A stretch of 53,481 nucleotides of DNA from assembly GCF_000469385.1 (NCBI RefSeq), contig NZ_KI271291.1:119810-173290 (forward strand), read 5' to 3'. Shown piece after piece: positions 33,076 through 39,975 of this stretch (position 1 is its first letter; each line of letters begins with the position of its first letter). The notes beneath the pieces were generated by a model. The model was not told the origin of the DNA. It made no database searches and saw only the letters and a program-made list of their open reading frames with translations. This DNA comes from Leptotrichia sp. oral taxon 879 str. F0557 (GTDB lineage Bacteria > Fusobacteriota > Fusobacteriia > Fusobacteriales > Leptotrichiaceae). Both the position numbers and the translations under genes were made by a program.

Positions 33076-34182
33076 ATGGAAAATTATGTATATTTTAACG
33101 GTAGAAAACTGCGATATGGCTATACCACAGGAAGTTCGGCAACAGCAGCGACTAAGGCGGCACTGTTACTTTTACTAGGAAAAGCTGAAAAAGTCGAAGA
33201 AGTTGAAATAGATGTTCCAGCAGGTAAAAAGATAAAAATTAAGATTAAGTCTTTTGAAAAGACAGAGGATTATGCAACAGCAACTGTCATAAAAGATGGG
33301 GGAGATGACCCTGATGCGACACACGGTCTAGAAATCATATCAAAAGTAAGTTTTAGAGAAGATGATAAAATCAATATTTTTGGAGGAAAAGGAGTCGGAA
33401 AAGTCACAAAAATCGGACTTCCTGTCGAAGTTGGAAAATCAGCAATAAATCCAACGCCAATGAAAATGCTGACTGGTATTGTGAAGGAACTTCTTCTGCC
33501 TGGAAAAGGAGTAGATGTTGAAATTAGTGTGCCTCTGGGTGAAGAAGCTGCCAAAAAAACAATGAATGGGAAATTAGGGATTATTGGTGGAATTTCTATT
33601 CTTGGAACAATGGGAATTGTACGTCCGATGTCTGAAGAGTCATGGAAGGCTTCCCTTGCAATAGAGCTGAAGCAAAATTTAACATATTTTAATACAAAAA
33701 CAGCAATATTTCTTTTTGGAAATCGAGGAAAAATGTTTTTGAAAAAGGAATTTCCAGAAAAATCTGAAGAAGGTGTTGTAATCAGCAATTTTGTGGGATA
33801 CATGTTTGATAAGGCGTGTGAATTTGAAGTTAAGAAAATTTATTTTATTGGAGAATTGGGAAAATTTGTAAAAGTGGCAGGAGGAATTTTTCATACGCAC
33901 AGTCGAGTTTCTGATGCAAAAATGGAAATTTTGGCTGCAAACGCATTGTTAGTGGGTGAAAAACTAGAAAATGTCTATAAAATTCTAGAATCGAATACAA
34001 CTGAAGAGGCTTCTGGATACATTGAAAAAAAAGAAGTTTTTAACTTGCTAGCTGAAAAAGCAAAACAAAAATGTGAGGAACATTGCAGAAAAAATGGATG
34101 GGATCTAGAAGTGGAAACATTGATTTTATCAGCTGAGAAACAGGTTATAGGGCATAGTAAGCACTTTTTTGATAATTTTTAA
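33076..34182 (+). CDS. cbiD: Cobalt-precorrin-5B C1-methyltransferase CbiD
   Basis: A 368-residue enzyme that methylates C-1 during ring contraction in the anaerobic pathway. The N-terminal YGYTTGSSATAATKAALLLL, IKDGGDDPDATHG, and GGKGVGKVTKIGLPVEVG are strong CbiD signatures. GGAG lies seven bases before the ATG. The gene is full length. Confidence 0.95.
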   Translation: MENYVYFNGRKLRYGYTTGSSATAATKAALLLLLGKAEKVEEVEIDVPAGKKIKIKIKSFEKTEDYATATVIKDGGDDPDATHGLEIISKVSFREDDKINIFGGKGVGKVTKIGLPVEVGKSAINPTPMKMLTGIVKELLLPGKGVDVEISVPLGEEAAKKTMNGKLGIIGGISILGTMGIVRPMSEESWKASLAIELKQNLTYFNTKTAIFLFGNRGKMFLKKEFPEKSEEGVVISNFVGYMFDKACEFEVKKIYFIGELGKFVKVAGGIFHTHSRVSDAKMEILAANALLVGEKLENVYKILESNTTEEASGYIEKKEVFNLLAEKAKQKCEEHCRKNGWDLEVETLILSAEKQVIGHSKHFFDNF

Positions 34183-34334
34183 AAAATAGCTTTAAGGATA
34201 AAGAAGTTGTTATGGTTATTGCCAATAGGTCAAAAAATCCGGCTATATATTGTGATATATAGTTTAAAAAAAGTTTAATTAAATTTACGAGAAGTAAAAG
34301 TTAGTAAAACCTCATTGATAATTTTTAAATTACA

Positions 34335-34430
34335 GGACTACATTCCTTAAAAAATTAAAAACTTCAAAATTTATGGAATATATTCCTTAAACTTTAACAA
34401 TTTATAGAAAAACAGGATTATATTCTGTAA
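34335..34430. repeat. Three 16-bp palindromic boxes spaced exactly 40 bp apart
   Basis: GGACTACATTCCTTAA (34335), GGAATATATTCCTTAA (34375) and GGATTATATTCTGTAA (34415). The middle copy contains the perfect palindrome GGAATATATTCC. The start-to-start distance is 40 bases in both cases (about four helical turns). The last box ends four bases before the -35 element of the next gene, so these look like operator sites. Confidence 0.6.
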
Positions 34431-34433
34431 AAA

Positions 34434-34462
34434 TTGATTTTTAAATAAAAAAGGGGTATAAT
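34434..34462 (+). promoter_or_regulatory. Promoter of the AAA_14/DUF4143 gene
   Basis: TTGATT (34434-34439), 17-base spacer, TATAAT (34457-34462), 24 bases before the ATG. Confidence 0.7.
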
Positions 34463-34485
34463 TTAAAAGGAAATGAGGTGTTAAA

Positions 34486-35724
34486 ATGATAAGAATAGAC
34501 AGAAAAGAATATTTAAATTTTTTAGTAAAATCAAAAGACAGACAGATAATAAAGGTCGTATCTGGTGTAAGAAGATGTGGAAAATCCACTCTTTTTGAGA
34601 TATATAAAGATTTTCTGCTTGAAAATGGAGTTGCAAAAAATCAGATTATATCTATAAATTTTGAAGATATTGATTATGAAGAACTTACAGATTATAAAAA
34701 ACTTTATGAATATATAAAATCTAAAATGATTGGAGATAAAAAAAATTACATATTTTTAGATGAAATTCAGCATGTGGATAAATTTGAAAAAGTTGTAGAC
34801 AGCCTTTTTATAAAAGAAAATACAGACCTGTATATAACAGGCTCTAATGCCTATTTTATGTCGAGCGAGTTGGCAACCCTTTTAAGTGGGCGTTATATAG
34901 AACTGAAAATGTTGCCTTTATCATTTAAGGAGTATTATCAGGCTAAATTAGAGTATGAAAAACTGGAGCAGAAGGAAAATAGGACATCAAAAACACTTAT
35001 ACAATATTATAATGAATATATAGTAAACAGTTCGTTTCCTTATACTTTACAGTTAGACAGTGATTTGAAAAATATACATGAATATTTAAGTGGGATATAC
35101 AACTCTGTACTCTTAAAAGATATAGTTGCAAGATTGAAAATTTCAGATGTAATGAGACTTGAAAGTGTTGTGAAGTATATATTTGATAATATCGGTAATT
35201 TAACTTCGCTTTCAAAAATAGCGAATACCTTAACTTCAATGGGAAGAAAAACAGATACAAAAACCATTGAAAAATATATTAGAGGACTTACTGACAGTTT
35301 ACTTGTGCATGAAGTTAGCAGATACAATATAAAAGGGAAAGAATTCCTGTCCACATTATCAAAATATTATGTTGCAGATTTAGGACTCAGACAGATGATT
35401 TTAGGCAACAGAAATATAGATATGGGGCATATACTGGAAAATATAATCTATCTCGAACTGCTTAGAAGAAAAGGCAATGTATATGTCGGACAGTTTGATA
35501 AAAACGAAATTGACTTTGTTGTTATTAATTCAAATGAAATTAAATATTATCAGGTTGCTTTGACTGTCTTAGATGAAAACACTTTAAAAAGGGAACTGGA
35601 TGCCTTTAAAAATATTAAGGATAATTATCCGAAGTATCTTATAACTTTAGATGATGTAATGGTAAATACTGACTATGACGGAATAAAGGTTGTAAATGCT
35701 CTGGAATGGTTGTTGAGGAATTAG
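34486..35724 (+). CDS. AAA_14/DUF4143-type ATP-binding protein
   Basis: A 412-residue ATPase common as a free-floating accessory gene in anaerobes. It has Walker A SGVRRCGKST, Walker B YIFLDEIQHV and the sensor-1 TGSNAYFMSSELATLLSGR (in part). The C-terminal DUF4143-like part contains YYVADLGLRQMIL, ILENIIYLELLRR and a nuclease-like FDKNEIDFVVI. Its function is unknown; such proteins are sometimes linked with toxin-antitoxin or DNA-processing roles. It has its own promoter and separates cbiD from cbiL, so it is probably a late insertion. Confidence 0.88.
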   Translation: MIRIDRKEYLNFLVKSKDRQIIKVVSGVRRCGKSTLFEIYKDFLLENGVAKNQIISINFEDIDYEELTDYKKLYEYIKSKMIGDKKNYIFLDEIQHVDKFEKVVDSLFIKENTDLYITGSNAYFMSSELATLLSGRYIELKMLPLSFKEYYQAKLEYEKLEQKENRTSKTLIQYYNEYIVNSSFPYTLQLDSDLKNIHEYLSGIYNSVLLKDIVARLKISDVMRLESVVKYIFDNIGNLTSLSKIANTLTSMGRKTDTKTIEKYIRGLTDSLLVHEVSRYNIKGKEFLSTLSKYYVADLGLRQMILGNRNIDMGHILENIIYLELLRRKGNVYVGQFDKNEIDFVVINSNEIKYYQVALTVLDENTLKRELDAFKNIKDNYPKYLITLDDVMVNTDYDGIKVVNALEWLLRN

Positions 35725-36678: not shown

Positions 36679-37407
36679 ATGGCTAGTAAATTAGGTAAAT
36701 TCTATGGAATAGGAGTAGGAGTAGGAGATCCTGAAAATATAACAGTTAAAGCAGCAAAAAGACTGCATGAAGTAGATGTGATAGTACTGCCTGAGGCAAA
36801 AAGCGGAGAAGGAAGCACAGCCTTTAATATTGTAAAAGAATATGTAAAGCCAGAAGTAGAGCAGCTATTTTTGGAGTTTCCGATGATAAGGGATGTGGAA
36901 GCAAGAAAAGTTTTTCGTAAAAATAATGCGGATGTAATAAGTGCTGAATTGGAAAAAGGTAAAAATGTAGCGTTTTTAACAATAGGAGACCCAATGACTT
37001 ATAGTACTTATACTTATGTATTGGAACATATTTCAGATGATGTGGAAGTTGAAACTATCGCTGGGATAACTTCGTTTAACAGCATTGCAGCGAGGCTTAA
37101 TATACCGCTTATGGTTGGAGATGAAGATTTAAAAATAGTGTCTGTTAGTAGAAAAACTGATGTTCATAAAGAAATTGAAAATAACGAAAATCTAGTGTTA
37201 ATGAAAATTAGCCGAGATTTTGAGAGAATAAAAAAAGCGATTATTGAAACAGGAAATAAAGAAAATATAGTTATTGTTTCAAACTGTGGAAAAGAAAATG
37301 AAGAAATTATTACAGATATTGAAAATGTTGAAAGTGTACATTATTTTTCTACATTAATTCTTAAAAAACAGGGAATAGAAGAATGGAAGAGATTTTTAAA
37401 AGCGTAA
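36679..37407 (+). CDS. cbiL: Cobalt-precorrin-2 C20-methyltransferase CbiL
   Basis: A 242-residue SAM-dependent tetrapyrrole methylase adding the C-20 methyl group. It shows GIGVGVGDPENITVKAAKRL, FLTIGDPMTYSTYTYV and TIAGITSFNSIAARLNIPL, all hallmarks of CbiL/CobI. AGAGGAG precedes the ATG. It is separated from cbiD by the ATPase and the frameshifted gene. Confidence 0.93.
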   Translation: MASKLGKFYGIGVGVGDPENITVKAAKRLHEVDVIVLPEAKSGEGSTAFNIVKEYVKPEVEQLFLEFPMIRDVEARKVFRKNNADVISAELEKGKNVAFLTIGDPMTYSTYTYVLEHISDDVEVETIAGITSFNSIAARLNIPLMVGDEDLKIVSVSRKTDVHKEIENNENLVLMKISRDFERIKKAIIETGNKENIVIVSNCGKENEEIITDIENVESVHYFSTLILKKQGIEEWKRFLKA

Positions 37408-38231: not shown

Positions 38232-38337
38232 TAATATTATTTATGGCAGAGAAGATTTAGGATTAAATATAAAATTGTATAAAGTAATAAAAAATGTTAT
38301 TATTTTATTAAGAAAATTCTCTGAAAGGAGACTCGTT

Positions 38338-39975
38338 ATGAAGAGATTGCCAATAGGAATAAGTGATTTTAAGTATTTAATAGAGGAAGATTATTATTAT
38401 TTTGACAAGACAAATTTTATTGATGAGATTATTAAAGATGGCTCTCAAGTAAAACTTTTTACTAGACCAAGAAGATTTGGGAAAACATTGAATATGTCGA
38501 TGTTAAAATATTTTTTTGATATTAAGGAAGGTAAAGAAAATAAAAAACTTTTTAACGGATTGTATATAGAAAAGACAGAAAGTTTTAAAAGACAGGGGCA
38601 ATATCCTGTTATATTTTTATCCTTAAAGGATTTAAAAGCTGAAACTTGGGAAGAAATGCAAGTTGGAATAAAAGAGTTGTTACAAAATATATTTATAGAA
38701 TATAAAAATTTAGCTAAAGAATTAGATGAATTTGATTTATTGAATTTCAAAAAAATTATTAACAGGGAAATAGAAGTTGAAGGATTAAAATCTTCATTAA
38801 AATTTTTAGCAAGAATATTATATGAGAAATATAATAAAAAAGTTGTGGTATTAATAGACGAATACGATGCTCCTCTAGTATCGGCATATATGAACAGATA
38901 TTATGAAAAGGCTAAAAACTTTTTTAAAACTTTTTACAGCACAGTGATGAAAGACAATGTCTATTTACAAATAGGAGTAATGACAGGGATTATTAGAGTT
39001 ATAAAAGCTGGTATCTTCTCAGATTTAAATAATATAAGCACTTATACTATATTAAATGATTTTTATTCTGATTGTTATGGATTAACAGAAGAAGAAGTTG
39101 AGAAGGCATTAAAAGCTTATAATTTAGAATATGAAATACAAGATGTTAAAGATTGGTATAATGGCTATAAATTTGGTAAAAGTGAAGTATATAATCCTTG
39201 GAGCATATTAAATTTCTTACAATCTAAAGAATTAAGAGCCTACTGGGTAGACACTTCAGGAAATGATTTAATAAATAATGTACTTAAAACAACAAATAAA
39301 TATACCATTAGAGCTTTAGAAAAATTATTTAATGAAAAAGGTTTAAAGCAAAATATATCTTCTACATCAGATTTATCAAGGTTGTTAGGCGAGGACGAAT
39401 TATGGGAATTACTGCTATTTAGCGGTTATTTAACAGTTAAAGAAAAAATTGGAGATATTCATGAAAGTATTTACACATTAAGATTACCAAATAAAGAAGT
39501 GAAGGATCTTTTTAGAAAAACATTTCTAGAAAGATATTTTGGAAGAGGAAGTAAACTAATAGATTTAATGGAGGCTTTGACTGAAAATAGAATAGAAGAT
39601 TTTGAAGAAAAATTTCAAGAAATTTTGTTGACTTCAGCGAGTTACCATGATACAAAAAATGAAGATTTTTATCACGGATTAATTTTAGGAATGAGCCTTT
39701 ATTTAGAGAATCAATATCATATAAGTTCAAATAAAGAAAGTGGCTTAGGAAGATACGACTTAGTAATGGAGCCAAAGAATAAAAATGATAAAGCCTATAT
39801 TTTAGAATTTAAAGTTGCCAAAAGTGAAGAAAGTTTAAATAAAGAAAGCCAAGAAGCAGTAGAACAAATAATTTCTAAAAAGTATGATGTAAACTTGAAA
39901 GAAAAAGGAATAAAGGATATTATTTTTGTAGGTATAGCTTTTTATGGAAAATTAGTGAAGGTTGCTAGAAATTGA
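38338..39975 (+). CDS. AAA-ATPase-like protein with PD-(D/E)XK nuclease domain
   Basis: About 545 residues. The N-terminal AAA-ATPase_like domain has LPIGISDFKYLIEEDYYYFDKT, Walker A TRPRRFGKTL and Walker B VVLIDEYDAPL. The C-terminal DUF1703-type domain ends with RYDLVMEP...YILEFKVAK, a PD-(D/E)XK nuclease core with Asp, Glu and Lys all present. Such proteins are widespread multi-copy accessory genes in Bacteroidetes and Fusobacteria; their function is unknown. ATG 38338 follows GAAAGGAGA; the frame from 38275 is longer but unsupported. Confidence 0.9.
   Translation: MKRLPIGISDFKYLIEEDYYYFDKTNFIDEIIKDGSQVKLFTRPRRFGKTLNMSMLKYFFDIKEGKENKKLFNGLYIEKTESFKRQGQYPVIFLSLKDLKAETWEEMQVGIKELLQNIFIEYKNLAKELDEFDLLNFKKIINREIEVEGLKSSLKFLARILYEKYNKKVVVLIDEYDAPLVSAYMNRYYEKAKNFFKTFYSTVMKDNVYLQIGVMTGIIRVIKAGIFSDLNNISTYTILNDFYSDCYGLTEEEVEKALKAYNLEYEIQDVKDWYNGYKFGKSEVYNPWSILNFLQSKELRAYWVDTSGNDLINNVLKTTNKYTIRALEKLFNEKGLKQNISSTSDLSRLLGEDELWELLLFSGYLTVKEKIGDIHESIYTLRLPNKEVKDLFRKTFLERYFGRGSKLIDLMEALTENRIEDFEEKFQEILLTSASYHDTKNEDFYHGLILGMSLYLENQYHISSNKESGLGRYDLVMEPKNKNDKAYILEFKVAKSEESLNKESQEAVEQIISKKYDVNLKEKGIKDIIFVGIAFYGKLVKVARN

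Follow-up and report, generated by a model that had tools for sequence, protein, structure and literature searches.

What binds the regularly repeated palindromic boxes that precede an AAA_14/DUF4143 ATPase gene, and what might they do to its promoter? The question is raised by a stretch of 53,481 nucleotides from Leptotrichia sp. oral taxon 879 str. F0557, which was analysed as a whole and is referred to as the window; all positions given count from its first letter. The first-pass annotation, made from these letters, had proposed that the boxes form an operator, and we followed this proposal through the promoter, the protein, its orthologues and its wider family.

Three palindromic boxes lead into the promoter of the ATPase gene

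The region upstream of the ATPase gene contains the following features:

34333 to 34350, forward strand: box 1, CAGGACTACATTCCTTAA, with GGACTACATTCCTTAA at 34335; no mismatches to the first-pass consensus
34373 to 34390, no strand assigned: box 2, the best palindrome, ATGGAATATATTCCTTAA, with GGAATATATTCCTTAA at 34375; core GGAATA-TATTCC; 40 bp from box 1
34413 to 34430, forward strand: box 3, CAGGATTATATTCTGTAA, with GGATTATATTCTGTAA at 34415; two mismatches to the same consensus; 40 bp from box 2
34434 to 34439, forward strand: -35-like hexamer TTGATT, unchanged in all eight aligned sequences (window plus seven orthologues)
34453 to 34468, forward strand: fourth 40-bp register, which includes the -10 TATAAT at 34457 to 34462; the -10 centre lies 39 bp past the centre of box 3
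34475 to 34480, forward strand: GAGGTG, ribosome-binding-site-like, read from the sequence

Motif matching confirmed that the boxes, placed by the first-pass annotation at 34335, 34375 and 34415, are spaced by exactly 40 and 40 bp, and that the end of box 3 adjoins the -35. The promoter of the ATPase gene reads TTGATT-17-TATAAT, with the boxes upstream of the -35, and its -10 is as constant as its -35 in the same eight aligned sequences. The palindromic core was found as proposed: box 2 is a perfect 12-bp palindrome that matches the consensus on both strands, with no mismatches on the forward strand and one on the reverse, and a repeat search placed it within an 89% palindrome and recovered boxes 1 and 2 as a 38-nt direct repeat (74%, spacing 40). 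Box 1 is the only place in the genome with no mismatches to the 19-mer used in our own-genome search, and the sequence in the fourth register, AAGGGGTATAATTTAAAAGG, is weakly box-like. The further proposal, that the boxes share one face of the helix, is right only for 10.0 bp per turn; at 10.5 bp per turn, 40 bp amounts to 3.81 turns, which puts neighbouring boxes about 69 degrees off.

Two other kinds of element were considered and rejected. The boxes lie upstream of the -10 and therefore outside the transcript that starts from the TTGATT/TATAAT promoter, which rejects an RNA leader element; and only palindromes of about 20 bp recur between spacers, which does not agree with a CRISPR-like or simple tandem array. 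Chance repetition deserves more attention, as the region is very AT-rich. The repeat-plus-palindrome score of the 170 bp upstream has a z of 3.0 and an empirical P of 0.01 against 100 dinucleotide shuffles, and the whole window holds 22 box matches with at most three mismatches versus 12.7 expected. Taken alone, the statistic for the three boxes is suggestive, not overwhelming, and it is the family comparison described below that makes the array firm.

The gene encodes a predicted STAND-like ATPase of the PDC-S01 type

The gene and the parts of its product are as follows:

34486 to 35724, forward strand: AAA_14/DUF4143 ATPase gene, 412 aa, PDC-S01 of PADLOC (Pfam and PADLOC matches)
34549 to 34935, forward strand: AAA_14 domain, residues 22-150, with an intact P-loop GVRRCGKS (Pfam match)
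35149 to 35373, forward strand: predicted winged helix, residues 222-296 (AlphaFold2 model; our reading of the order of elements)
35380 to 35721, forward strand: C-terminal domain, residues 299-412, PD-(D/E)XK-like (invariant residues and model; label from PMC12988326)

It is located in a cluster of cobalamin genes, between cbiD (33076 to 34182) and a cobalamin-type methylase gene (36679 to 37407), and the contig measures 173 kb in a genome of 2.4 Mb. Family membership comes from matches of a single chain to both PF13173 (113.9 bits; cut-off 27) and PF13635 (67.1 bits; cut-off 28.1), and the PADLOC model PDLC04787 (PDC-S01) matches residues 3-411 of 412 with an E value of 7.5e-155, by which the ATPase is a single-gene phage-defence candidate. 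NCBIfam gave no family at an E value of 0.01 for this protein, and a search of the PDB by sequence gave nothing usable (best E value 0.57). A paper on archaeal immunity describes PDC-S01, in the passages that deal with it, as a fusion of an ATPase with a PD-(D/E)XK superfamily member, ranks it fourth in frequency among the defences of prokaryotes, and states that validation of most PDCs is still pending (PMC12988326).

Comparison of 33 sequences showed invariant P-loop residues G27, R29, R30, G32, K33 and S34, and, in the C-terminal domain, invariant E341, D343 and Q356. The PD-(D/E)XK label of this domain is the one given to PDC-S01 in the cited paper, rather than the outcome of a fold search of the domain alone, and the catalytic signature D...(D/E)xK was not found in these 33 sequences, where Q356 is followed by V and A. 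Since the lysine of ExK is missing, catalysis by the C-terminal domain appears doubtful and nuclease activity should not be assumed.

An AlphaFold2 model built from the 33 aligned sequences (pLDDT 90, pTM 0.90) presents, in this order, an AAA core, a helical part, winged-helix-like elements and a C-terminal alpha/beta domain. We read the elements at 222-234, 242-251, 258-270 (the predicted recognition helix), 274-281 and 286-296 (the wing strands) as a putative winged helix-turn-helix. The closest solved folds to residues 1-307 are SSO1545 (2fna) and PABY2304 (2qen), with a Z of 17.6 and rmsd values of 3.6 over 271 residues and 3.9 over 272, respectively, followed by several plant NLRs (Z 12.5-16.4), CED-4 (Z up to 15.5) and the Cdc6/Orc1 structures 2qby (Z 14.0) and 1fnn (Z 13.3); the replication initiation factor 1l8q also appears in the Foldseek list. 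The match to 2fna spans model residues 1-306, in which the AAA core is continued by a helical part and then by the winged helix, as in STAND/SSO1545-like proteins, and the protein would accordingly be named a STAND-like ATPase in the sense of a shared fold, not of a shared function.

Operators follow the protein clade across phyla

Absence of the boxes upstream of orthologues had been named by the first-pass annotation as the result that would speak against an operator. Instead, all eight close orthologues keep at least two boxes. Three recognisable boxes are kept in seven of the eight (88-98% identity; L027-L033), which come from the same genus, another genus and another family, with box 1 weak in the sequences from that genus (L031, genome G019) and that family (L033, genome G036). 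Two boxes are kept in the Fusobacterium gastrosuis orthologue (L145), and two boxes plus a third on its own -10 in a homologue of 66-68% identity (L034, genome G038). In the aligned close orthologues the boxes are about as conserved as the spacers, and therefore this set alone proves little.

At larger distances the picture is as follows. First, a GGAATnnATTCC-like box with at least 8 of 10 letters precedes 21 of the 24 genes that are 55-69% identical to that in the window, and 19 of these 24 match at least 9 letters; genes with this box include those of Phascolarctobacterium, Clostridium, Roseburia and Desulfovibrio piger, and many belong to other phyla. Second, at 55-62% identity, 17 of 21 genes have a significant array, which scores 9-15 of 18 letters (mean 12.5), and four have none. 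Third, no box with at least 8 of 10 letters was found in 15 genes at 50-54% identity, foreign genes and L002, the paralogue from the same genome, alike; L002 has 6 of the 10 letters of GGAATnnATTCC, and 7 of 18 operator letters match between it and the window gene. The repeat itself differs by clade, being AGGAATA-TATTCCT in that of the window versus TATCAGTTA-TAACTGATA, TTATCGATTA-TAATCGATAA, GAATTAAAT and others elsewhere.

Paralogues of one genome share 9.60 of 18 operator letters on average (n = 30) versus 9.30 for a shuffled box, a mean that leaves out the divergent pair L161/L161a, which shares its intergenic region and hence scores 18 of 18. Binned by protein identity, same-genome and different-genome pairs score 10.62 versus 9.63 at 30-40% (L161 pair included), 9.82 versus 10.03 at 40-50%, and 8.57 (n = 7) versus 10.51 (n = 700) at 50-60%, where a single orthologous pair, which enters once for each of four genomes, largely determines the same-genome mean; in the first two bins operators are no less similar within genomes than between them. 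Since foreign homologues at 50-54% identity also lack the window's box, the same-genome comparison alone cannot separate a protein that binds its own operator from a clade-specific outside binder.

As far as can be judged from sequence, it is the protein clade, and not the host genome, that makes operators alike, which is the behaviour expected of a protein with an operator of its own. Because the box follows the clade across phyla and differs among the paralogues of one genome, the comparison favours the ATPase over a regulator from outside as the likely binder. That the boxes are an operator of the AAA_14/DUF4143 gene, as first proposed, thus appears well supported by the comparison of orthologues and of the family.

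The alternative binder would be a host-encoded regulator, for example of the GntR, MarR or TetR type, that controls the ATPase gene among others. Regulators of these types typically leave such a footprint, a palindromic operator adjoining the -35, but the likeness of operators from the same genome, which is no more than chance, and the retention of the window's box in other phyla do not agree with one. The genome searches bear on the same point.

Box searches in the same and in other genomes

With up to three mismatches, the 19-mer has 88 matches in its own genome versus 31 for a reversed control, own array included, an excess that a host regulator could explain. The genome search for the box that the first-pass annotation had suggested nevertheless gave no sign of a regulon: nine of the ten other places with at most two mismatches are inside ORFs, on which ground we rejected a host regulon, and the single one that is not resembles, by eye, a terminator hairpin.

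We also scanned 98 genomes for pairs of GGAnTnnATTC boxes at a distance of 38-42 bp, a pattern that is specific rather than sensitive, as it missed the known arrays in G019, G036 and G038. It gave 15 matches in nine arrays, compared with none for the reversed pattern. Seven arrays (13 matches) precede intact genes of the family. An eighth (L361, genome G008) is at the same cbiD-methylase locus, at which no family ORF was found, so that the gene has apparently been lost and the operators have stayed; and next to the ninth (genome G039), 76 residues give a weak match to the family (10.1 bits), apparently from a decayed family gene. All nine thus belong to places of the ATPase family, again at odds with a host regulator. 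The pattern also occurs in four viral contigs, in none of which it stands beside a family gene within the stretch covered, and the idea of the array as a phage target found no support in these contigs.

Two observations on gene copies may be added. On contig C76 of the same genome (36-1206 and 5225-6397; L002, L004-L006), pieces of a broken copy of the family lie a few kb from an intact paralogue of 55% identity. The related genome G035 has 17 DUF4143 matches, some of them partial, on several contigs.

The spacing of the repeats is subfamily-specific

To compare spacing, we assembled 289 unique family genes encoding at least 350 aa (205 in an earlier round), leaving out nine matched ORFs with incomplete N-termini, proteins of less than 350 aa, and short or N-containing upstreams; start codons were chosen by script and operator calls are statistical. 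Single-linkage blastp clustering gave five groups of at least five genes, which we use as subfamilies of our own definition. For each gene, we took the gap that gave the best repeated, palindromic 20-mer pair in the 180 bp upstream, with the following results.

First, in the subfamily of the window, 39-41 bp was the best gap in 34.8 of 62 genes (less than 70% mutual identity) versus 3.1 in dinucleotide shuffles, and in 28.6 of 62 versus 2.4 when palindromy was ignored. Second, another subfamily has 32-33 bp in 14.2 of 28 genes versus 0.7 in shuffles. Third, a six-gene subfamily has 23 or 46 bp in all six, a five-gene group has 32 or 64 bp in three, and a twenty-gene subfamily has no preferred spacing. 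A later set of 45 genes, taken from the bacterial family of a Blautia schinkii genome and less than 70% identical to the first set, again gave 39-41 bp, in 16.6 genes versus 1.9 in shuffles. With close relatives included, 108 of 203 genes of the window subfamily have a significant 38-43-bp pair at P of at most 0.05, and 76 at P of at most 0.01; no significant array was found in the other 95.

Two further controls delimit this result. At the same loci, 39-41 bp was the best gap for 36.9 of 94 family representatives, all subfamilies considered, versus 16.3 of 156 upstreams of other genes; and it was so for 1.7 of 30 upstreams of PF09820 ATPases from the same phylum. The count for other genes is about twice the shuffle level, in line with some chance contribution in AT-rich DNA. 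Even so, the family-wide spacing measured against shuffles, other genes and another family, together with its recurrence in the later sets, refutes chance repeats at the level of the family, and we leave this explanation practically no weight. Judged by these comparisons, spacing is a property of the protein subfamily and box sequence is not. Subfamily-specific spacing would also be hard to explain by many unrelated regulators, and, taking all the evidence together, we regard a host-encoded regulator as unlikely.

On mobile elements, 39-41 bp was the best gap in 12 of 32 unique genes from viral contigs, a count without shuffles and with near-duplicates kept. Among four plasmid homologues examined, 40 bp was best in three, and the Acinetobacter homologue L477 has 61 bp as its best gap and 40 bp as its second. 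Plasmid records with a family homologue number 229, and 173 of these are from Acinetobacter (about 50% identity among the matches listed).

Other families and groups were seen alongside. A second ATPase-nuclease family, PF09820 AAA-ATPase_like plus PDDEXK_9 (38275 to 39975 of the window, and L417-L446), is also multiplied, with seven matches in the same genome and presence in 38 of 60 genomes, and no preferred upstream repeat of 39-41 or 32-33 bp was found in 30 of its genes. DUF234-tailed sister ATPases of related genomes (L447, L449-L460) have upstream palindromes about 30 bp apart in 5.7 of 13 genes, several of them closely related, and possibly follow the same principle with another pitch. 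A group of mostly Bacteroidota genes (L160, L162-L169, L176) lacks a clear 40-bp array upstream; a longer inverted repeat like ATGACGAAA...TTTCGTCAT, also given as like TGACGAAA...TTTCGTCA, was seen by eye just upstream of them.

The array tends to be in register with the -10

The position of the -10 relative to the array bears on what binding would do. Of 62 diverse genes for which the array is significant, 40 have a predicted -10 whose distance from the box centre deviates by no more than 4 bp from a multiple of 40 bp, versus 13.9 expected if positions were uniform: the -10 is on a box in 10 genes, one register away in 20, and two registers away in 7. Because TTATAA box cores resemble TATAAT, the predictor may have taken a box for the -10 in the 10 genes of the first class and so contributed part of this signal; the genes at one or two registers are harder to account for in this way.

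These numbers can be read in two ways. The ATPase could bind the array and activate its gene, or switch between repression and activation by nucleotide state: boxes 1-3 of the window are upstream of the -35, at centre-to-centre distances of about 39, 79 and 119 bp from the -10, which is a usual position for activators, and the 20 genes in which the downstream box of the best pair is one register upstream of the -10 agree with this. A box on the -10 itself fits repression, however, and the register as a whole fits coverage of the promoter better, and thus we find activation or switching rather unlikely.

The array might also serve the replication or mobility of an element, as an iteron-like origin, partition or recombination site, with promoter control as a secondary effect. 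Repeats are the binding sites of iteron Rep proteins and of Orc1/Cdc6, in many cases close to the genes that encode these proteins; an Orc1/Cdc6 structure, 2qby, is among the fold neighbours of the ATPase, and the family is present on the plasmid records counted above and in viral contigs (41 loci). Such a role sits poorly with a window copy embedded in a cobalamin gene cluster of a 173-kb contig and with a register tied to the -10, and we consider it very unlikely.

Candidate DNA-reading parts of the ATPase

If the ATPase binds the boxes, residues that contact DNA should vary with the operator, and we looked for such covariation with phylogeny partly controlled, so that shared ancestry remains in these tests. 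Among 77 diverse genes, association with the operator half-site is, segment by segment, highest in the predicted helices at 239-253 (mean summed z 15.7) and 254-272 (17.7), compared with 8.9-14.7 for other segments, and the same two helices of the helix-turn-helix came out on top by segment in an earlier run with 38 genes. Seven of the 20 top columns are in 239-272 (hypergeometric P 5.6e-4, with columns treated as independent). The best single columns are 124, 259, 263 and 281, the very best being 124, in the AAA domain. Particular protein sequences visibly pair with particular boxes, namely, DxKTxxKYxRGLTDSL with GGAAT, ETILNYIKAC with ATCAGTTA/ATCGATTA, PTVYDYL with GAATTAAAT, and KTVxKYISMLRSAF with TTTTGACTT.

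Other tests spread the signal more widely. In a partial Mantel test, the windows of residues 117-135 (0.156) and 391-403 (0.143) rank above the helix at 254-272 (0.128). A nearest-neighbour test was won by the region 254-292 at two of three identity cut-offs, a weak result that varies with the cut-off, and it ranked the 239-272 window 335th, 69th and 69th of 379. Therefore, we hold that the winged helix as DNA reader is likely rather than settled.

Residues 117-136 (34834 to 34893 of the window) form a lower-confidence loop after the strand at 113-118 that is otherwise nearly invariant (TGSNA..xSSELAT); its residues 124 and 125 are variable and track operator type as strongly as the recognition helix does. 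In Orc1/Cdc6, the AAA domain makes a second DNA contact, and by analogy a second contact from the AAA domain of this family is possible.

A putative operator array, probably bound by the product of its gene

We infer that the ATPase probably binds its own promoter as an array of fixed pitch and represses its own gene. The sequence evidence consists of the array, the spacing of each subfamily, boxes that track the clade, the register of the -10, and operator types that covary with several parts of the protein, the recognition helix being one. Each palindrome of about 20 bp would be read by the STAND-like ATPase, as a dimer or as two protomers, with the winged helix of its DUF4143 part. Contacts between neighbouring units, at a pitch set by the subfamily (40 bp in that of the window, 32-33 bp and 23/46 bp in its sisters), would make binding along the array cooperative. 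With the -10 in the 40-bp register, the assembly would cover it and thereby repress the gene. More speculatively, titration, ATP turnover or an infection signal might release the array and induce the protein.

A wider reading, which we put forward tentatively and as more doubtful than not, is that a very common class of bacterial immune candidates, STAND-type and NLR-like, may be DNA rulers on their own promoters, with repressor and sensor in one protein. They would polymerise there at a subfamily-specific pitch, with a specificity insulated from that of paralogues, until an infection cue (invading DNA, a phage protein or a nucleotide change) led to ATP-driven release, induction of the gene and freeing of the effector.

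With respect to PDC-S01, whose model the window protein matches, what is described here is the operator arrays; the passages on PDC-S01 in PMC12988326 contain nothing on promoters or DNA binding. Our literature search, which did not extend to preprints (bioRxiv) and most subscription journals, found, among the papers listed, none on promoters of the AAA_14/DUF4143 (PDC-S01) family. Likenesses to three other kinds of system can be drawn.

First, the initiators Orc1/Cdc6 (archaeal) and DnaA (bacterial) are AAA+ ATPases with repeated boxes as binding sites, in the case of DnaA within its own promoter as well, and the fold matches 2qby, 1fnn and 1l8q recall them. Unlike in these systems, paralogues of the ATPase family have different boxes, the pitch is fixed by subfamily and the -10 is in register, and no origin function is indicated for the array. 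Second, the fold likeness over residues 1-307 extends to SSO1545/PABY2304 and to STAND ATPases, a class that includes NLR resistosomes, CED-4 and Apaf-1. The winged helix of NLRs is a regulatory domain and not a DNA reader, whereas covariation suggests that the winged helix of this family may read DNA. Third, Stl of phage satellites and autoregulated toxin-antitoxin systems can be likened to the ATPase as self-regulating repressors that double as sensors, each being a one-gene autoregulated unit with insulated specificity; we know of no Stl protein that is an AAA ATPase with a nuclease-like tail. Stl2 of the satellite SaPI2 is reported to mediate antiviral immunity (PMC11846896). For the Thermus thermophilus AAA_14/DUF4143 gene TT_P0211, a 6.6-fold rise in RNA is reported in the presence of a plasmid, provided that Argonaute is there as well (PMC4406477), and we take this rise as a published hint of inducibility.

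The operator arrays give a first mechanistic handle on PDC-S01, as they provide a defined candidate DNA ligand for each protein, and their ruler-like spacing predicts the geometry of the oligomer. Insulated operators could explain how many paralogues, such as the 17 matches, some partial, of genome G035, coexist without cross-regulation. Operator arrays may also allow PDC-S01 proteins to be typed and orthogonal protein-operator pairs to be predicted.
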